Source: Dactylonectria macrodidyma (taxonomy: Eukaryota; Ascomycota; Sordariomycetes; Hypocreales; Nectriaceae). Taken from it: 64,000 bases of DNA. Shown in pieces: positions 33,017 to 45,183 of this stretch. The position numbers and the translations under genes were made by a program. The first letter of the stretch is position 1; every line of letters begins with the position of its first letter. The stretch is taken from the NCBI GenBank assembly GCA_020744425.1, contig JAGMUV010000001.1:6200001-6264000 (forward strand). Reading direction: 5' to 3'. The notes below the pieces were generated by a model. That model did no database searches and was not told where the DNA came from. It saw nothing but the letters and a program-made list of their open reading frames with translations.

Positions 33017-33256
33017 TCATTGATGGCTTGTCGCATAATGGATACTGCAGCGGGCGCAGGGTTCGTGATGACAATTCAGACATTGCGGCGTCGTGGCGTA
33101 TACCCACTGATAATCGCACAGATGACAGGTGTACATTAAGGTAATTCCCCTCGAAGCAAATGAAGTTTTCTGGTGTGGAGCAGGTGTGTAACCTGACCCA
33201 GAGGAAGTAGTACCTGGCTTATATGAAGTCGTACTCGCCGTAGAGGACCCTGGCAT
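33017..33256 (-). CDS. small Cys-rich zinc-binding-type protein, paralogue B
   Basis: A 79-residue protein starting at ATG 33256-33254. It has a Ser/Thr/Gly/Pro-rich N-terminal half and the same C-x2-C-x11-C-x2-C-x4-C-x2-C cluster as the gene at 16020-16256 (MYTCHLCDYQWVYATTPQC, LNCHHEPCARC). The fingers are kept while the linkers have changed, as expected under purifying selection on a metal site. It sits in the duplicated segment next to the RIP-mutated transporter fragment yet has no stop. Function is unknown; a protein-binding or RNA-binding zinc ribbon is possible. Confidence 0.65.
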   Translation of the reverse strand: MPGSSTASTTSYKPGTTSSGSGYTPAPHQKTSFASRGITLMYTCHLCDYQWVYATTPQCLNCHHEPCARCSIHYATSHQ

Positions 33257-33798: not shown

Positions 33799-36700
33799 CT
33801 ATGACCCTGTCGAGCGCTCTTCCATTACCACTTGTGTCAAATCTTTTGGGAACAAGCCACGCTCGCCCTTCTTGTTCGTACCCATCCACCAATTGTCGGT
33901 CACCATTCTGATGTTTGTGAGGAGCTCGCCGGCGACCAGATCGATCTGGTCGCTATCGGTACTCTGATAATCGCTTTGAACGGACACGGTAAGGCGCGAC
34001 CCTTTTGACATCTGACTTCGCCGATCCGAGTCTTTAACGAGCTCTACATAGTTACTCGGAAACACGCCACGCTGTCCCTTTTCGTTGGTACCAAGCCACC
34101 AGAGTTTGTCAACCCTGTCAATATCCTCAATGCGCTCGCCTTCACGAAGGTCAATCTCGTTGTCCTCAGCCCTATCGTAATCGAATGTGACTATTGCAGT
34201 AGTAGGTGGCATTTGAGACAACTGGTGTTCTGCCGCCGAGTCGTCGACAACCTCGACGTGGTTACTGGGGAAGAGGCCGTGGAATCCTTCTGCGTTGGTG
34301 CCATACCACCAAATGTCGCTCATTTTCTCAATGTTTGTCACGTACTGGCCTTCAGAGAGGTGAGGCTCGTTCTCCAGGGTCCCTTCGAACTCACGCTTAA
34401 TGACTGCTGTGAAGCATTTGTGTGACTTAGTTGCACTGTGTGGTGTCGGTAACTGCTCTTCGATCGACTCTGTGTTGGTTGCTTCTGCAACTGCAGCTTC
34501 GCTCCCAAAATTGTGAGATGTGGGAGCGGTTCCAACATAGATCTCTTTGTATTCAAGAGCGGTTCCAGAGCCTGCGGGATGATCGTTGGCTGAAGGGTCA
34601 TCTGCTGGGGGATCTTCGACAGGATATTGCATTGGACTCTCCACCACGTTGTCCACTGCTGTCGCCTCGGCTCCTTCGGCCGCTTCGGTTTCTATTAATC
34701 ATTTAGTTTTTCCAGTAACAAGATTAGTGAATTTATGACCTTCATACTCAGTTGAAACCCGTGAGCCTTCCTCGTTTCAAAGGATTCGAGAAACTCTTCC
34801 TCTACGTAAATGTGTCTCACCGGGAGATTGACTTTGGTGAGAAATTCGACGGCAGTTTCTCGTTGTTTGAAGTCACCGTCCTGGCTTACAAGGAAATCGA
34901 GTCGTTTAATAAGAGTGACGAGGTTCGAACACAAAGATCCCGGACTTTCTGGATCTGGATCCTCTGATGTTCCTCCGCCGCATTTCCAGGCCACATCCAG
35001 AATCAATGCCCAGTCCTCATCAAGAAGTAGCGGATGTAGGTTGTGTTGCCCATCGTCAAAAAGAGCGTTGATAAGCTCCAAAACAGCGGCGAGATTTGGT
35101 AGATAAGATCTTGTCGTTGCGACAGTACTGAGTCCGTCAACCAGCAAAGCATATTGGACAGACGGGTACCCTTTGTCGATGTCCGAGGACACCAATCTCT
35201 GTAAGACGGAGAGTATAGAACGAAGGCCCCGATTGATATACCGCACGTTGGTGCTTTCTATAGGAGCTTGCTTTAAAAAGTCGACCAGGGTGTTCACGAT
35301 TTGAGGACCATGATCAGATTTGAGAAGGATGGAAAGAGTTCGCCACAAACGGTTATACACAGGCCGGTGCTTTCCAGACTTGCAATAGAGATCATAAATA
35401 ACAACGACGCAATTTTCGAACACAAACTTAAGAATGATTTGAGACGTCAACAGTATATCAATCAGCCTCAAGCTCTGTTTCAGGTTGTCTTCTGAAGTAG
35501 TAGTGCGGCAGATTTTCAAGAGCGCGTCAGCCAAGCTAAGCCCGGCAGCCAGGTTGCTATTAACGAAGGCAGGACTTATGGCATCTAGCAAGATATCAAA
35601 AATCTGAGCAAGGTTGCCTTTTCGTCGGGCAGTCCCCCGTCTCGCAGTCAAATGCTGGCTGCGTTCTGGAGATCCGGGTCTCCGTGGAGTGGGCGGGACT
35701 GGAGCGTAGGCGTGTTGCATCCATTCAACCAATATAGGGAGAAGCGAAATATATTCCACCTCGGTTAGACGCCGCCCGCCGTGTGTTAAGCAAGCAACGG
35801 CTGATATCTGAAGTTGGAAATCATCCGGATGTGTAGGCGAATGGAAAGTTGTGAGGAATGCCAGACGCCCCGGCCCGGGGTGACTGACGAGGATAATCTG
35901 GGTCAAGAGATTCCAAGCGGCAATACGGGCTCGTGCAGGTTGACCGGGATCGACAAGATCCTTCGCAGCGTTCCATATGTCAATGAGGAAGCTGTGGTCT
36001 GAGGATACCGGAATAGACGACCGCAGGGAGTCGGCAGCAGAGGCTCGATCTTCGAGAGTGCCAGTTCGGAGAAGCTCGAACGATCTCATGTCATCCGCAA
36101 GGAACCCATAAGGCAAGTTTGTATCAGAGAATTGGCTAGCAGGTTTATCAGACGAGGATGAAGGAGAAGCAATGGATGGGGATGGCTCAGGAAGCTCTGT
36201 GCCGGCTGTGTCCCCAACGCCAGCAGCATCAACTCGTGATGGGTTCTCCGTTTCGTCATCGTCGACATAGCCCTGGGGCTGCCCACGCGACTGATGCTGA
36301 TTCTGCTGCTGATCGTTATTCTCAGAGTCAGAATCAACATCTTTAAAATTGGGCTTCGTCGTTTGAGCGTCCTCCGATGTCAAGTTGCCGACTGAATCCC
36401 CATCCACCGCTTCTAGATTCGTTTTCATGGCTGATGCATGAATGTTAGCTAGTTGCCGCATGTCAAATGCTCTCCGCAAGGTGTGCAGCATGTGGGGATG
36501 GGCGAGTGGAATGTTCCCCACGTTGTTCAGCCCAACTTCGTTGGCTGCCCAAGCAAAGTCTCCATGCTTGCTGGAATCTAGCCTCACGGAACGATCATCT
36601 TTGATATCAACCTCAAAGAAATATTCAGGAAGATCCTCAGCCGTTTGCTCCGAAAATGTGGCACCTGGCGCTCCGTCCATGCGGTCAAATATGAAGCGCT

Positions 36701-39700
36701 TAATGTGACGAGGATTCAGTCCAGTTTGCTCCTGCAACTTGCGTAGACAGAATTGGTAGCTATTTGCATCAGGGTATTCAGTATCCCAGCCAGGTGGCTC
36801 CCAAAGATCAGGCTCCCCGACATTGGCGGTGCGTTTGAGAAGAAGAAGAGAGCCTCTGTCGTCGAAGACGAGAATAGGTGAGAATACATCGGCCTGAGTG
36901 TTTCTATCCATCCTCGGCGACCCTGGGCTGGCAGTACCATGCGGACTGAGTAAGCCGTCGGAAGTGGATGAGAGCTGCGGCACCACTTCAGCGTTCGGAG
37001 ATGTGCCTGGCTGTTTTGCCTTGGGTTGTCCGGTAGAAGATTGGCCAAATTCAGGCTCATCATCCGCCAAACTGAGTCTCCGTACAATTGAACTGATGCT
37101 CCTTGCATTGTGTGATTTGCTGCCCGGAAGTTTTTGGCCTGTGGATTTGTTAGTAGCTATTGTCAAAATAATGCCCTGGATAGTGGTTGAGGTCGGTGCC
37201 ATATTCTTCAAGAAAGAGAAATAAGGCTTACCTGCTGGTGTTTCGTTCGAGGCTACCGTGTGTTCTTCTTCTTCAGTTGGCAGAGCAGGGAGCCGGCGAA
37301 TCAAGTTTGATGCATACGTAGCGGCTGCCATTGCCGCGTACCCTTCCCACTCAGGGTACTGGTGACCATCCGAATAGTCACATATGCCATGAATTACCAA
37401 ATCAGGAAACTCGCCCTCGACGAACGAAGTAACTCGCTCGATGCAAAGGACTGGGTTGTTATCAATGATCTGATCTCGAAGCTTGCGGTCCCGCCGTACG
37501 CCCTGGCGTAGGAGATGGCCAAAGGCGACTAATCCATAGTGCACGGCAGAATTTTGGTCAATTGCACTATCACATATTATCTGCGATGCATCATCACCAT
37601 GCTTTTCGATGCATGGTTGGCCGTCCACGCGATAGTGGACGACGTCAGGCTTATAAAGTACATCGCTCTCTGGATGGGGATGTCCAAAGTTCTCTTCGTC
37701 TTGCAAGTTACCTTTAAGTACGGCTCTGATGACGGCCTCACATTGTTGGCGACTCATTTTGAGAGCATGTTCCAAACCAGGCAGTAATTCTTCAAGGAAT
37801 TCCGATGGAAGGGTCATGGATGCTCGGGTTCGATAATCTGCGCAGTGGAGGAGTCCCTTCATATCGGGATCCTCGCCGCCACTAACAACAACATCGCCCA
37901 GACGGATGTCATGATTCGTGCTAGGAACACCTCCAGCGATGTCGACAACCAACCTGATTTGGACGTTAGGAAACATATCAGTTATATCCTGCGTGCGAAT
38001 TCCCAACAGGGAGTTCCAGAAGATGATAACGACATTGTGCCTTCCAATCCTACCCATGGTCTGAGGATTGTCTGAATTTCTCTCTTCCGGGTGGCTGTTG
38101 CGATGTTCCTCGTCGAGAAACATCTTGGCTGCTGTGAATGAATCTCTCAATGAGCAGACCCAGGCGATGGTGTATGTTTCGGGGGGGCGTATAGCTGACA
38201 CAGGTGGGGTCCGAAAAAAGGAGAGAGGCAGAAGATGTGCTATAGACTCGGTTGTCATAGGGCCTGTCTCGTCGTGCTCTTCTTCAAGTGATACCACTGT
38301 AAACTTGGGTAATTCAGAAGTCGTACTAAGATATGCGTCGTTAAGGTCATCAGGTTTATCAAGGAACCTCGTGACGAATGGCTTCAGACACGTATCAAAC
38401 TCCCAGTCCTCGTCAAGTCCAGCAGACCGATCGTACAAACCCGAGTCGCGGAGCAAAGTCGGCCAGAAGTCTATATCGACGGGTGGGTCCTGGGATATCA
38501 AATCATGATCTGTAAAGTCTTTCTCCCAGTCTTTACAGTCACAATCTTCGTTGTCGCAGATTGTGGGCTGCTTACTAGATTCAGAGGAATTGTTGGCATC
38601 GATGCTCCGTCGGCGTGTGACGGCGGAGGAGTTGAAGTCACCGCAGTCTTCCAAGATGTCATCTCGGTATGGGGGAAGAAACAAGGCAATATCATGCATG
38701 TGTTGCTTGATATGTCGCCGCAATGCGAGTTGGGCCTCGGGTTGGGCTGGATCTGGGTGGTTCTTTTCGAGGACGTCAGGGTAGCCTCCACAAAATGGAC
38801 AAGTCACGAATAAGAATGCTGTTCTTCGTAGGCTTGTTTCTTTCAAGATGGTCAAGGCATCGCCAGAAACCCCGCCATGCTCTATGACGTAGTTTGTGAA
38901 AAGCCCTTCATCGTCGAATTCTTTAGTTTCTCCGCCAGGTAGATCAGCATGCCACGTTAGAGGAAGATGTTCTTGCAGATGGCCCAAGAGGCCGTTGAAT
39001 GAGTTGGGAACATCAAATGGCGTTTTGCAGTCTTCGGCAATGCAGAAGTACGGTTCAAAATCCTGCATGACATGCTGTCTATGCGTAATATCATTAGCGA
39101 AGGGGATTTGACAACAGTTAAATAATTCAACTTACATCCATCTCGCCTTCTCGGCCTCGCGGGCCCGGAACTCGAGACGACAGTAAGGGCATTGGAAGAC
39201 TCCATCCGTAACCCGGGGCGGTGGAGGAAACCCGATGTGTCGAAGGGCAACCGAGGCCACGCTTTCTGCCCGTTCAGGGAGTTTTGAACCAGGACGCATC
39301 ACCAGCTTAGTGTTCTCAGTTGCTGAGTAGATCGTCCGCTGGTCTTGCAAGATACGCCGCATAGGTGTATTTGAAGGCTTTTCTGGCACAATTGGTTTTT
39401 TGATCGCAACGCTTGAGCCATCAGCTGGCGCAAGTTGTGGCGCGAGTGGGAGAGGCTTTGGCGCAACTATCACAGCAGCTCTCTTCTTTTGGTGTCTCTC
39501 CAAGTACTCAAATCGGATTCTTCGTCTGGCAAAAGACTCTGCAATTCTCTTCTTGATCGTATCTGACGCCAACTTGAACTCGTCGTTAGCTTTTCGAGTA
39601 GCGAGTTCCTTGTAGCCGTTGAAAGCCCAGCTGGGACCCTCTTTCTCACAATAGAGCTTGACTCGCTCTTGTCGATGTTTGGCTCCAGAATTCTCAATTT

Positions 39701-40255
39701 GTCGTTCATGCCCGTGGAGTCGGTCGATAGTATCTTCAATGTGATCGCGCAACTTGATCTTCCGTTTGTCGACATCGTCAGTTGAATCACGCATGCGAGA
39801 GTCATCAGAAGAGGTCAACGAGTCGAATGACAATGAAGAGCCGTCGGAGTCGCCATCTTCTGCATTGTGCTCGTCACCTTCGACTTGAACAATTGGCTCA
39901 GGTGGCCTTTGTAACTCTATTCTATCGTTAGCTTCAAAGGTTTCGATCTAAGTCTTCCCACATCAAACTCACCCTCTAGGTCACATCTCAGTGCCTGAAG
40001 CAGATTCCGTAGAATGTCACATATTTCGGGTACATCTTTGAGTCGGATATCCACAGATCGACGACCCTCGCTGTGCACGCCTACTTTAGTACACCATAGG
40101 CTGAATTCTATCGCTTGGTGAGATGCCCAAGTGCCATCTTTGGGCTTCGTAGCACCTTGCTGCGCCTCCTCTTCTTGTGCAATCGTCCGAAGACGTGTCT
40201 CGCAGTCTTGTGCTAGTTTATTCAAGCTCGCCGTGTCTTCTGGAGTCGCCTCCAT
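33799..40255 (-). CDS. 2064-residue fusion: PNP_UDP-like, Nudix-like, tuberin-like, three SH3
   Basis: Exons 40255-39973, 39916-39136, 39078-37232, 37138-34748 and 34691-33799 join in frame over introns of 56, 57, 93 and 56 bp. The order of parts is as follows. An N-terminal domain of fungal C2H2/NLR-like proteins lies at about 1-95 (FSLWCTKVGVHSEGRRSVD). Zinc-finger-like segments lie at about 335-480 (FQCPYCRLEF, CPFCGG, HIKQHMHDIALFLPP). A nucleoside-phosphorylase-like (PNP_UDP) domain lies at 656-953 (YTIAWVCSL, VDIAGGVPS, HGICDYSDGH). A Nudix-like domain lies at about 1053-1197 with box residues partly lost (RKLQEQTGL). A helical domain like the tuberin N-terminus lies at about 1317-1767 (ICRTTTSEDNLKQSLRLIDIL). 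Three SH3 domains lie at about 1860-2056, each with a WW(Y/L/M)GT and G(L/V)FP signature. PNP_UDP is a usual N-terminal domain of fungal NLR proteins. A sensor or scaffold role is inferred. No NACHT or NB-ARC is present. Confidence 0.8.
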
Positions 40256-40651
40256 AGTAGCCTTTCAGCCAACACTTTGTTCGGAAGTGAAGCTGATGAG
40301 CTCTCCAGCGCTCTAATGGTTGTGAAACGAGGCCTGATTTGCGGCTGAGTATCCGACGAGCGGGGGTTCAGCAAATGACAGTCCGACATTCCAGCTGACT
40401 GTACAAATGCATGTGCTGGTGACGACTCCACCAGACAGCCCGATGTCTCATGCAAGAATTATCCCTCAAGTCAGTCAACCGAGGAGGGGAGACCCTTGCT
40501 TACTTAGCACTTACCCCTGTTACTGATCACGCGCCGCTCGCAACCCAGCCTTGTCAGCGAAGAGCCTAGTCATAACTCCTTCGTCTTCTCCACAACTCTC
40601 ATCTATCGCATCCATCGCTTGATCGCTCACACTTCATCCAGTCCCGCCCGA
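40256..40651. promoter_or_regulatory. shared divergent promoter of giant fusion gene and protease gene
   Basis: About 400 bp separate the two divergent starts, so the genes share one control region and may be co-expressed. No specific operator was identified. Confidence 0.55.
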
Positions 40652-43600
40652 ATGTGGCAGCTGCGGCTCCTCAGCCAGGTTATTCCCGCTTTCGGGGCCC
40701 TCGCCCGGCACTTTATCGAGGAAGAGGAGGAGGATGCAAGGCTGTGCCAGGACGCAAACGACTGCTATTCCGACTTTGTGTCGATAGGCTTGGCGCTGTC
40801 TGTATCCCGCGGCGAATGGACCGCGGGAATTGATGATAGAGACCTTACGAAACTGCTCCAGGCATTGGAGAGCCGGATCCCGACTAGAAGGAGTCCTTTC
40901 GGTTTTTTAACCATCAAAACGATACAGGTTAGCATATTTATGACCCAGTTGCTCAGGTCGCAAAGCGCTTACTCCATCGCTCAATAATGAAGGCACCACC
41001 TATATCACCCGGCCAAGCTGAACAGCATCCCAGGCTAGAGCATCTTTCCCGCTGTATCGAGTCAAAGGGCCTTGGCGGGCTCGAGGAGTGCTCCGCGTTG
41101 CTCGATCAATCCGATCAACACCAGCGGCTTTATTTGGCATTGCTAGGCTCCGACGTGCGTTTGTTTCACTCGAAAGAACAGCAAAATGACGATAAACGCA
41201 GCAAATTTCTCGTTCGGGTCAAGAGAGCAGCGGCCCATCTTCTCGATGTGTATTGCAGAGACCCGCATTCTGGGCGAGATGTTGAAGACCTCAGCCTTTC
41301 TCAGCATCCCAGTCATGGAATGAAGGAGATGGCGGAGAGAGTCTATGGGCTTCTCGAGCAACATTGGAGGTGCGAATGCACTCATAAAGCAATGAGGTCA
41401 ACCGGATCGAGGCAGGCGAGGCTCAGCTTAATCCGTTATCGCCAGCTAGCGCATCAGCTTACCTCGAAGACCATCGCACAACAAGCCCGTCTCTCGGTCA
41501 AATTTGAGATCCTTTTACCTGTCTGCAATGATATCGTTAATTGGAAGGTGACCAACTTCGAAGTCGAGAAATCACGGTAGGAGATGCACAAGATGTCGAT
41601 CTCCTGCTCGCTAACAATATCCGTAGGTCAAAGTCGGAAGATCAGTTCAACTTATTTCGAAAACTCGTCCACCAAGACATTTGTCATTGGTTGGAGCAAA
41701 GCAAACGCTTCCGGGTAGACTTCTTGGCTGAGAGCGAGGGACTTTGGCATCTCAAGCCGGAGCTACTGGATGGGATCAACCACCACACCAGCATGGAGTC
41801 CCTGTATCAACTTCTAGGAGACGATAGCAGGACGTCGCAAATATCAAAGTACACATGGCGAGATCAACTCCTCCTTTGCTACAGTCTTGCCAACTCTATG
41901 TTGTACTTGTATCCCGGGTCCTGGCTACAGACAGCTTGGAGTAGCAACATGGTCTACTTCATTCGACGGATGAATGACTCAACATCAACTCTACTCACAT
42001 TTCCGTATCTCGCGGTGGACCTTCGACAACAGCAAACAGAACCAGAAGATCTGGACCACATGCAATACCACGCACACCCAGTAATATTAGCTCTGGGAAT
42101 CATGTTTCTCGAGATTGCGACAGGTGTGAGGTTCAAGAGAACACCAGGCCTCACTTCTTGCGAACAGTGGAACACAGACGGTCCCGAGGCGTTCCAACTT
42201 CTTAAAGACTTGGAACGTGAGGGACGACAACATCGTTCTAAGCGGATACCTACAGCGCTTAGAGACGCCATCCGAGCGTGTCTGATTCTAAAGCCGCCGT
42301 CCGACTTCCCAAGCAAATCACTGCTGGAAGAAGGTCCAATTCGACACTACATCTTATCGTGTATTCTTCATCCTCTGGCATCCGAACTCAATACCCGGCA
42401 TAATATCAGCTTGGAACAACTTCAAGACATATTAATTCCAGAAGTTGATGTAAATGATGCAGATGAGAGCGCCCTACAAAACGGTGTTGCCCGTCAGCCT
42501 TCATACCCAATCAGCCCGATTGGACCTTCCAATGGAACCAGTATGACCCCATTTCCGACTGCGAGACCCTCTCTGACACTTGTAGATCGATTGGCACGAG
42601 TTGATTCGCAGAAACTCGAGACTTGCTTTAACGGAGGCACTGAAGAGTTAGTCGACCAAGCGAAGTGAGCATCTGAGAGATTGAAGATTCCGTGTATGAG
42701 CGCTAATACAACGCAGGAAGTCTTCAGCGCTGAAGTGGTTCCAGTGGCATAATGAGGCGTTAGCTCGTGTAGATGTATTACGGAATACTCGACTTTGCAA
42801 TGACCAACGAATCAAAATTGCCATCTTAGACAGTGGTATTGAATTATCACAAGATAACAAAGATATCTATGACGACGGCTCTCAAATAAAATACCAGAGT
42901 TGGGTTGATGACAGCCCTGAGTGGAAAGATCAAGTAGGGCATGGCACGCATCTCGCAACGCTGCTTCGCAGAATTGCGCCGAACAGCCTGCTTCATGTTG
43001 CGAGGGTTTTTAAGAAGAAGCCAAGCATGAAGAAGTCAGCAGGGTGTATCTCTGAAGTGAGACGAATTCTCGAGACTCCTTGAGTGCAATAATTACTGAC
43101 TTAGTTAGGCTATCCGACATGCTGTAGACGAGTGGAAGGTCGATATTATCGTCATGTCTTTTGGTTTCGAGGATGAGCAAGAACCACTATCCGAGTCTGT
43201 CAACTATGCGGCTCGAAACAATGTCTTAATGTTTGCAGCAGCGTCCAACGATGGGAAAAACCGCCCTGAGGAGGTTGCGTGGCCAGCAAGGGATATGCAT
43301 GTCATATGCGTTCATTCAGCTGAGGGTTTCGGCACGCCATCTACATTTACCCCAGGCCCACAAGACAACCAGAAGATTATGGTGCTGGGTGAATGCGTCA
43401 AGTCTGCGTGGCCGCAGCGTCTCACGTCTCCAGAGAACCACAAACTAATGAGCGGAACATCCTGCGCGGCTCCGATTGCCGCCGGAATCGCGGCGATCTT
43501 ACTTGACTACGCACGAGGGTTTCTCGAAGATGGCGAGTGGAAGAGATTTCGGCGAGTCGATTCCATGCGGCGGATGTTTGAGAAGATGAGGAGTCCAGGC

Positions 43601-43705
43601 TCACCGTCTGGTTATTGGTGGATTCGGCACTGGAAGCTATTCGATGAGAGGCAGAGCGAAGGTTGGATTCAGGGAGAAATAAGGGGCGCTCTCTATGGTA
43701 TTTGA
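40652..43705 (+). CDS. DUF7580-like plus subtilisin (S8) serine protease
   Basis: Exons 40652-40927, 40993-41576, 41627-42664, 42717-43056 and 43109-43705 join to 944 residues; introns are 50-65 bp and two have clear GCTAAC/GCTAAT branch points. Residues 1 to about 560 form the helical fungal domain often annotated DUF7580 (LLCYSLANSMLYLYPGSWL, then HPVILALGIMFLEIATG). The C-terminus is a peptidase S8 domain with Asp about 671 in IAILDSGIE, His about 708 in GHGTHLAT, oxyanion Asn about 793 in AAASNDG, and Ser about 864 in SGTSCAAPIAAG. The triad is complete, and there is no signal peptide or propeptide, so it should act in the cytosol. Fungal S8 proteases of this kind act in programmed cell death, for example HET-Q2 cleaving the gasdermin HET-Q1. 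The gasdermin-like gene lies 623 bp downstream. Confidence 0.85.
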
Positions 43706-44328
43706 TAATGAGAGACAATTTCGATAATCGCCCTTAGCCTCTGCAGAGTCACGGCATCCTCCCGCGCTAAATTCTCATATCACCTATCAGTGCTCTAGAT
43801 AGTTTAAACAAGTTCATATCACTTGATGTAGATGCCGTTTCGAGCCAAATATCTCCATCCACTCCTAACATATACTATAAACCAGAATGCATATAGAGGG
43901 CCATATTTAGGCAGAGTAAGAGTCCTCTGAGTTATAAACTAATTTGTAGCTTATCTAATGCGTAAAACTTGTTTTAAAAACACTTTTATGTCTAAAGCTA
44001 CCATAAGACCTCAATACAAAGATAGTAACCTCTGAATAAAACTATAGCGTACGCATACTTTCGGTCCAAGGCTATTTGTCAACACTATTGGTTCGCGAGC
44101 GATACAAAATGGATAGCAATTTGCCAGCTGAGCCTCAGATCCACTTTCCAGCATGTGGACAGATGATCCAATCAGTGAACAATTCAGCCTCAGCATCAGC
44201 TCACGTCTTGCGTGCGGGGTTTTTCGACTCTTATCTAACGCTAGGTCTCAACGAACAACACTTGATGTAGCCAATTCCACTTCCATTAGACTCTAAAGCG
44301 ACCGACATCCTAAAAGCAATCCGCGCCA
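43706..44328. other. gene-free stretch between protease and gasdermin-like genes
   Basis: AT-rich spacer holding the 3' flank of the protease gene and promoter of the next. No gene is supported. Confidence 0.45.
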
Positions 44329-45183
44329 ATGGCTAAACTCGCGTACTTTCAAGCCCCAAATTTCGACATCAACCCAGACAGCAGCACGGCGCCGAAGCTG
44401 GGGAGTATCTTCCCCAACCTCGACAAAATCACGGGTCCTCTCAATCAAGATGACTACATCGACATTCCTAAGAAGCTCATGAACGAGACGTCGAATGGCG
44501 ATTTCACAGCAACAGTCAAGAAGACGGTTGGTGTCGCTGCGAGTCTCAACGCGAACATTGCCCAGGGAATCGGTGGGACTGGCGATCTTGTGTACGCATT
44601 CGCAAGAAACACCCAGGACGTTTACCAGTGCGAGCTGCTTGAAACACTAGAATTTGAGCCAACCGAGCAACTTGTGCTTGATTTCATCCACGCATCCCCA
44701 CGGGTCCGCAATTTCCTCGAGAACAGCCTTCTAGGACTGAAAAGAGTGTACATGATCACTGGACTCAAAGTTGCCACTGGGTTCAGTCGGTCAACCTCCA
44801 AGGAGGTTCAAAACGGCCCAAAGGTCAATGTTGGAGTTGATGCCACCGCATTTGGCATACCCGTGGAAGCCGGCCCTAGTCTTGATCTTACGATCGAAAA
44901 TGCCACAACGATTTCTCATGGCCGATCTACCACTAAGATAGTATTCGCGTATCGAGCTATCAAGATCAAACGTAGGAGAAAGGGCGACGTTTCTTTTAGG
45001 TATAAGGGTGGTGGTAAATACACCTCCAACGAGGAGAGTGACGATAACGGAGACAGTGATGATGATTCAGAGCAGGGCTCCTGGGACATAGAGCCTGTGA
45101 ACCAGGAGGAAAGATCTGGAGACTTTAGTGGTTCGGAAGTTGTACAAACAGTCCAGACGAACAGTAACAGAGATTTTCTCTAG
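44329..45183 (+). CDS. gasdermin-like pore-forming protein (candidate)
   Basis: One exon, 284 residues, starting at ATG 44329. It begins MAKLAYFQAPNFDINPDSS and continues with KLGSIFPNLDKITGPLN. A beta-rich body follows with Ala/Gly-rich strands (SLNANIAQGIGGTGDLVYAF), then ETLEFEPTEQLV, the motif VYMITGLKVATGFS, VGVDATAFGIPVEAGP and FAYRAIKIK. This pattern, and the size of about 225 residues for the body plus a short tail, is what I recall of fungal gasdermin-like proteins (RCD-1, HET-Q1). The last 60 residues are acidic and disordered-looking (SDDNGDSDDDSEQGSW), suitable as an inhibitory peptide removed by a protease. The neighbouring cytosolic subtilisin gene supports this reading. The family call is from memory of patterns; a profile search would decide. 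Confidence 0.6.
   Translation: MAKLAYFQAPNFDINPDSSTAPKLGSIFPNLDKITGPLNQDDYIDIPKKLMNETSNGDFTATVKKTVGVAASLNANIAQGIGGTGDLVYAFARNTQDVYQCELLETLEFEPTEQLVLDFIHASPRVRNFLENSLLGLKRVYMITGLKVATGFSRSTSKEVQNGPKVNVGVDATAFGIPVEAGPSLDLTIENATTISHGRSTTKIVFAYRAIKIKRRRKGDVSFRYKGGGKYTSNEESDDNGDSDDDSEQGSWDIEPVNQEERSGDFSGSEVVQTVQTNSNRDFL

Follow-up and report, generated by a model that had tools for sequence, protein, structure and literature searches.

Organization of the locus

The locus described here lies in a 64,000-nucleotide stretch of the Dactylonectria macrodidyma genome (assembly GCA_020744425.1, contig JAGMUV010000001.1), which corresponds to C1:6200001-6264000 and is further referred to as the window. 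It comprises a gasdermin gene, a gene encoding a DUF7580 domain fused to a subtilisin-like protease (Peptidase_S8, further S8) and, head-to-head with the latter, a large sensor-like gene, called here the third gene. The first-pass annotation of this DNA had claimed three intact neighboring genes, which agrees with the splice models and frames that we derived from the DNA letters alone; their positions, counted from the first letter of the window, are as follows:

33799..40255, minus strand: third gene, sensor-like, multi-domain, 2064 amino acids (aa); five-exon splice model, frame intact
40256..40651, no strand: 396-bp region separating the divergent ATGs of the third gene and the protease gene; from the gene models
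40652..43705, plus strand: DUF7580-Peptidase_S8 protease gene; Pfam and gene model, first intron approximate
44329..45183, plus strand: gasdermin gene, single exon, 284 aa, acidic C-terminal tail; homologous to RCD-1-2 (8jyz_B)

The third gene runs on the minus strand from the ATG at 40255 to the stop at 33799 through exons 40255-39973, 39916-39136, 39078-37232, 37138-34748 and 34691-33799, separated by GT-AG introns (39972-39917, 39135-39079, 37231-37139 and 34747-34692). In the protease gene, introns are clear at 41577-41626, 42665-42716 and 43057-43108, while the first one was set at 40957-41033 (77 nt), which yields a protein of 940 aa, alternative choices being possible.

The gasdermin and its neighboring protease

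In a phmmer search against PDB sequences, the window gasdermin matches RCD-1-2 (8jyz_B, E 4.2e-8) and RCD-1-1 (8jyz_A, 1.3e-4), and thus shares pore-forming domain homology with fungal gasdermins of the RCD-1/HET-Q1 type. We found 10 gasdermin copies in the 77.3 Mb genome, within which all recurrence reported here was judged: the window protein as query retrieves eight loci, a second query nine (C67:625k), and a hidden Markov model (HMM) adds C9:446361-447215; since the HMM was run on fetched stretches and not on the whole genome, more distant copies elsewhere may be missed. Pairwise identity is low (17-37%; 56% for the C23/C34 pair), and a motif of the [IV][TS]GL type is present in 8/8 aligned copies. 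The short acidic tail noted earlier was seen here as well: the final 60 residues of the window protein contain 16 D/E vs 4 K/R. At the nine loci with a main frame extending to the protein end, the counts are 13-20 D/E vs 2-7 K/R, and in the likely last frame at C9:1365k 14 D/E vs 4 K/R.

For the protease, Pfam recognizes DUF7580 (E 1.3e-31) and Peptidase_S8 on both catalytic exons (1.3e-4 and 3.7e-14):

41670..42392, plus strand: DUF7580 domain, kinase-C-lobe-like; Pfam, with weak matches of an 11-copy profile to PDB kinases
42805..43588, plus strand: S8 catalytic domain across two exons, with ILDSG, GHGTH and SGTSCAAP; Pfam and paralogue comparison

The predicted fusion of DUF7580 to a subtilisin with a full triad is therefore present and, as for HET-Q2, an S8 domain with Asp-His-Ser motifs is encoded next to a gasdermin. 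The genome holds 12 S8 copies, the window one included, and 11 of them are open frames, the copy at C5:7366 carrying six stops. All 11 have DUF7580 upstream of S8 within the same gene region and keep the catalytic Asp ([LI]D[ST]G motif), His and Ser positions, so that a catalytically dead protease across homologues can be rejected. The His motif reads GHGT in 10 of them (RHGT at C56:2673k) and the Ser motif GTS in nine (GCS at C56:2673k, GSS at C9:445k).

We compared the PDB with a profile built from 11 DUF7580 sequences, of which 10 belong to S8 proteins and one to the C21 locus (the short C1:441k piece being left out). The matches are weak, and 59 of 60 rows are kinases or pseudokinases, with best E values for CLK1 (0.0016), B-Raf (0.02), MLKL (0.03) and JAK2 (0.03). 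We infer from this profile similarity that DUF7580 may be a pseudokinase C-lobe. PMC12881547 mentions "other predicted kinase-like domains" fused to proteases of fungal gasdermin clusters.

Recurrence of the three-gene neighborhood

The N-terminal part of the third protein contains a C2H2-like zinc core by which related genes can be traced. Searched with the core of the C34 copy, the genome returned 31 rows at E ≤ 1 and 25 rows, representing 23 loci, at E ≤ 0.01; C13, found with a second query, brings the number to 24 loci, and six rows (C15, C1:6102k twice, C76:1107k, C1:4798610 and C18) were excluded. A search with the N-terminal 495 residues of the window protein agreed with this result (22 rows at E ≤ 1). 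Nine of the 10 gasdermin genes have members of both other families, DUF7580-S8 and zinc-core, as neighbors. In turn, a zinc-core gene lies within 15 kb of 11 S8 copies out of 12 (within 6 kb for 10 of them), where 0.11 would be expected. Linkage of the third gene is thus well supported in this one genome, and adjacency of the trio as an accident of a single locus is ruled out by its recurrence at nine gasdermin loci. The spacing is not uniform: at C56:2673k the zinc core lies 12.5 kb from the DUF7580 part, with retrotransposon- and transposase-like frames, read by eye, in between. At C5:7-12k, decayed S8 and decayed zinc-core frames, each with six stops, lie side by side. Searches with tblastn against plasmids led nowhere.

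Domain content of the third gene

The domain order of the third protein is N-domain, zinc core, PNP_UDP-like, Nudix-like, DUF3384 and three SH3 domains, all encoded on the minus strand:

39973..40231: N-domain, about 80 aa, common to zinc-core genes elsewhere; HMM from seven loci including the window
38667..39197: C2H2-like zinc core (CPYC...W and a Cys/His region), split by the intron 39135-39079; invariant columns and HMM
37260..38189: degenerate PNP_UDP domain; 32-40% identity to PNP_UDP proteins of the same genome
36549..36875: degenerate Nudix domain; Pfam NUDIX E 0.004, below the cut-off
34830..36056: DUF3384, the N-terminal TSC2/tuberin domain, without the GTPase-activating (GAP) part; Pfam E 2.3e-63
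33811..34413: three SH3 domains, outer borders approximate; Pfam SH3_9, three stretches, E 4e-28

The N-domain HMM matches 10 of the 11 fetched zinc-core loci, seven of these 10 having built the model; at C9:441k the zinc core is present and the N-domain HMM gave no match. The zinc core has 15 invariant columns across eight loci (HMM E 2.5e-42, the window row being part of the model).

The first-pass annotation had listed a PNP_UDP domain and SH3 repeats for this protein. The latter were recovered by Pfam as three SH3_9 stretches, and the list proved incomplete, as the DUF3384/tuberin and Nudix parts had been missed. Pfam itself makes no PNP_UDP call on the protein; the homology stands on the identity to own-genome proteins, 5/5 of which were PNP_UDP_1 when scanned. 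Aligned with 17 paralogues, the region is changed in 52 of the 117 columns that are well conserved among them, compared with 0-25 for each paralogue left out in turn (17 of 20 loci were aligned, the window itself and two stop-containing loci being excluded). It reads CIERVTSFVE where the paralogues have CFEMEAAGLM; the FEMEAAG-type motif of PNP_UDP takes part in nucleoside binding. With this conserved motif lost, the idea of an active PNP_UDP effector at the N-terminus of the giant protein is rejected. The comparison with NLR-type (NOD-like receptor) N-terminal domains fails as to position, the domain being internal and unaccompanied by a nucleotide-binding oligomerization domain (NOD).

Similarly, the Nudix box reads RKLQEQTGL instead of the REL.EE.GL of four own-genome relatives, two glutamates now being K and Q. 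DUF3384, a family that we take to be the N-terminal domain of tuberin, is 42% identical to the separate, longer-framed TSC2-like gene of this genome at C23:3249865; as in integrated decoys, a duplicated host domain is thus fused to a protein for which a receptor role may be proposed. The PNP and Nudix parts, with their motifs lost, thus look like dead enzyme domains, and DUF3384, devoid of its GAP part, is a fragment.

Just past the stop of the giant gene, a zinc-motif frame (LMYTCHLC..., 33020-33145, minus strand) resembles the C-terminus of the C23 third gene (phmmer E 1.9e-14). This motif suggests that an older, shorter zinc-core gene may have received the PNP-Nudix-TSC2-SH3 block by insertion. 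A stronger version of this idea regards the giant gene as chimeric or wrongly modeled: the N-domain and zinc core alone would belong to the system, and the block would be an accident without selection. This would agree with the position of the C23-like motif, the degenerate PNP and Nudix motifs and the own-genome domain searches, which detected no second locus combining PNP, Nudix, TSC2 and SH3. Yet about 1700 codons stay open over exons 3-5, DUF3384 matches at E 2e-63, and its 42% identity to TSC2 points to an old origin; we hold this explanation to be unlikely.

Wider pairing with DUF7580 genes and variable C-termini

A genome search with PF24476 gave 34 DUF7580 rows (E ≤ 0.01), of which three score under the family cut-off. 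A DUF7580 gene is found within 15 kb of 18 of the 24 zinc-core loci (0.31 expected) and within 8 kb of 16 (0.17 expected), and 17 of the 18 pairs are oriented head-to-head. Seen from the other side, a zinc-core neighbor accompanies 17 of the 20 top-scoring DUF7580 rows, as against 1 of the remaining 14. Six zinc-core loci have no DUF7580 gene within 15 kb: C76:957k, C2:1288k, C5:272k, C1:4798k, C12:3917k and C5:12k, the last being the decayed copy beside the decayed S8. The earlier expectation of a conserved three-gene neighborhood hence holds inside this genome, while a linkage specific to gasdermins does not, as zinc-core genes pair with DUF7580 genes generally. About 140 kb from the window locus, a zinc-core match at C1:6102k (E 0.07; excluded from the counts) and a DUF7580 match at C1:6105k (E 9e-4, under the cut-off) also lie head-to-head.

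At C17:770100-772000, DUF7580 is fused to a PNP_UDP domain with FEMESAG and CDYAD intact, head-to-head with the zinc-core gene at C17:774k; judged from its sequence, this pair may represent the same base with a different output, i.e., an intact-looking PNP_UDP. Given this fusion and the pairing beyond gasdermin loci, the constant unit seems to be a zinc-core gene plus a DUF7580 gene, which the gasdermin joins in nine cases with S8 as the output.

The C-terminal parts of the third genes vary from locus to locus. The Pfam scan covered the sister frames except C9:441k and both C56 third genes. The C14 gene (866501-872200) contains 21 WD40 stretches, very alike by eye; alike WD40 repeat arrays are of the type found in fungal allorecognition receptors. 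A Sel1 match occurs at C9:1363k, and at C1:446k a NACHT/NPHP3_N and ankyrin frame begins 28 bases past the end of the zinc-core frame. At C21:326-334k, the zinc-core frame is followed on the same strand by two frames, one with a kinase match and one with a HeLo match (E 1.6e-52), opposite a divergent DUF7580 gene in which no S8 was detected. Neighboring frames at such sister loci presumably form one protein. No Pfam family was found in the third-gene frames of C34 and C23 (full frames) and in part of C1:2766k.

Proposed function and alternative explanations

On balance, we lean toward reading the locus as a three-gene, pyroptosis-like regulated-cell-death module in which the third gene provides a separate receptor or regulator, since sister loci carry typical receptor parts (WD40, Sel1, NACHT plus ankyrin). 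The 2064-aa protein would be built on the N-domain/zinc-core base, with its degenerate PNP_UDP and Nudix domains, TSC2 N-terminus and SH3 domains serving as non-catalytic surfaces for recognition, as decoys or for docking. Once triggered, it would act upstream of the protease and release or assemble the DUF7580-S8 protein, the DUF7580 part being a pseudokinase-like relay; the activated S8 would cut off the short acidic gasdermin tail, and the freed gasdermin domain would form pores. As for the sense-cleave-kill circuit initially proposed for this DNA, its gene content, gasdermin identity, protease motifs and third-gene link were substantiated, and its N-terminal NLR-type PNP_UDP was not.

A number of observations weigh against the receptor/protease/pore interpretation. 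No NACHT or NB-ARC domain appeared in the Pfam scan of the 2064-aa protein, and AlphaFold on single sequences was uninformative (pLDDT, the predicted local distance difference test, 37 and 32). The window gasdermin gave no Pfam family at E ≤ 1, PF04598 included; PF04598 has no match in the whole genome either, the control of that search being uninformative. Fungal gasdermins were discovered through remote-homology methods, and a PF04598 match is not a defining trait; the expected profile hit is missing, and the gasdermin identity stands through the RCD-1 homology. One gasdermin with an acidic tail (C67, 625587-626399) has no S8 and no zinc-core gene in 9.9 kb (flanks of 4.0 and 5.1 kb), and the genome searches gave no S8, zinc-core or DUF7580 match on its contig. 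In turn, the S8 gene at C56:3309k is followed in tandem by a zinc-core gene, with no gasdermin in the 10 kb examined, and around the S8 copy C1:309k neither partner was found in the 12.5 kb examined. The remaining points concern the zinc core and the linkage, and bear on three alternatives.

Against the PDB, the zinc core matches DNA-binding C2H2 fingers (Zif268, GLI; best E 1e-4), which would fit a transcription regulator. As such, the third protein would be specific for its cluster, bind the shared 396-bp promoter between the divergent start codons and control the protease and the gasdermin, and the head-to-head order in 17/18 pairs suits this view. However, the modules at sister loci (NACHT-ankyrin, WD40, Sel1 and the downstream kinase and HeLo frames of C21) are receptor or death parts, and the spacing of the zinc-binding residues is strongly variable, so that we give the regulator only a small chance.

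Equally improbable in our judgment is that the third gene encodes an antidote or brake that keeps the protease inactive, its loss or displacement leading to killing (guard by absence). The constant pairing of zinc-core and DUF7580 genes and the joint decay of S8 and zinc-core copies at C5:7-12k would be expected of such a brake. Against it, the S8 copy C1:309k stays open without a zinc-core neighbor, though also without a gasdermin, and module variation from locus to locus suits sensing better than holding one partner.

The third alternative is linkage without function, i.e., an ancestral cluster that was duplicated repeatedly and retained its neighbors. All the families are paralogous, and the P values of the linkage (1e-22 to 1e-29) assume independent placement and ignore paralogy; as the linkage may be inherited in this way, they are too small and mean "not random placement" only. 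Mantel tests on the nine complete loci were repeated without C23, which removes one close locus pair. Gasdermin and S8 distances are correlated in both cases (r 0.89, P 5e-5; without C23 r 0.74, P 1.5e-4). For the zinc core, the correlation falls from 0.65 (P 0.02) to -0.06 with S8, from 0.68 to 0.14 with the gasdermin and from 0.71 to -0.04 with DUF7580; co-evolution of the third gene with the gasdermin/S8 pair was therefore not found in these nine loci once C23 was excluded. The value for DUF7580 and S8, parts of one protein, also drops (r 0.77; without C23 0.30, P 0.065), hence part of the loss is probably due to saturation. The weak zinc-core correlation may reflect either saturation or an exchange of third genes between loci. 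Still, the linkage persists despite protein identities of 14-43% (C23/C34 apart), it is kept at C9:1363k and C56:3307k, where order or orientation is altered, and between genes whose C-termini differ, and at C56:2673k it survives across 12.5 kb holding transposon-like frames (by eye). We consider linkage without function unlikely.

Relation to known systems and biological meaning

The short-tailed gasdermin adjoining an S8 protease resembles HET-Q1/HET-Q2 and other Q2L pairs, in which HET-Q2 cleaves HET-Q1, according to PMC10989679 and PMC12881547. In PMC10197012, clustering with a protease gene is reported for about 80% of fungal gasdermins, and with S8 for about 63%, and two-gene clusters are described in which the protease gene itself is the sensor; in contrast, a third, mostly head-to-head zinc-core gene recurs here. 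Excerpts of this literature (PMC10197012, PMC12881547, PMC10989679, PMC12258605) speak of "two- or three-gene clusters" and of proteases to which repeats or NLR parts are fused, and their cluster descriptions, as far as covered, do not name a third gasdermin partner. The zinc-core/DUF7580 pairing, and likewise DUF7580, was not seen in the literature searched, which is not proof of absence from print. The gasdermin/S8 pair is of an already known kind, and the third gene, as a separate, recurrent and modular partner, appears to be new.

Although it shares detectable pore-forming domain homology with the window gasdermin, Neurospora crassa RCD-1 is triggered by two antagonistic alleles and not by cleavage, as stated in PMC12881547. 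The proposed logic of a receptor, a separate protease and a gasdermin is analogous to, without making the locus a member of, the mammalian NLR - caspase-1 - GSDMD pathway, and the sister locus C1:446k has NACHT and ankyrin beside its protease; the differences are S8 in place of caspase, the pseudokinase-like DUF7580 and the lack of a NOD in the window gene. Plant head-to-head sensor/helper NLR pairs share the orientation and a duplicated host domain on the sensor side (here the TSC2 N-terminus), whereas neither window protein has a nucleotide-binding domain. As in het-S/nwd2 and HeLo-NLR clusters, a receptor-like gene adjoins a pore-forming effector gene, and at the C21 locus a DUF7580 gene is accompanied by frames for zinc core, kinase and HeLo; unlike in het-S/nwd2, the effector encoded in the window is a gasdermin with a protease gene next to it. 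For Sordariales NLRs, PMC12258605 counts zinc fingers on 57 proteins and reports putative integrated decoys, head-to-head NLR pairs being rare there.

More tentatively, and with somewhat less confidence than an even chance would warrant, it may be proposed that fungi have a modular head-to-head receptor system, of which the literature searched gave no description. It would combine a zinc-core sensor carrying swappable readers (NACHT-ankyrin, WD40, Sel1, TSC2/SH3 decoys) with a DUF7580 pseudokinase relay carrying a swappable output (S8 plus gasdermin, PNP_UDP nucleosidase, HeLo/kinase), the window copy guarding the TSC/TOR (target of rapamycin) pathway via a captured TSC2 N-terminus.

A 2025 review (PMC12881547) names the stimuli of fungal gasdermin-cluster sensors as a major open question and calls for work on protease control. 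The recurrent separate partner gene provides a named candidate controller at nine gasdermin loci of one genome. If our interpretation is true, fungi would divide the tasks among receptor, protease and pore in the way mammalian inflammasomes do, with a receptor base able to connect to several outputs of cell death; nutrient/TOR signaling would then be the guarded target indicated by the TSC2 fragment.

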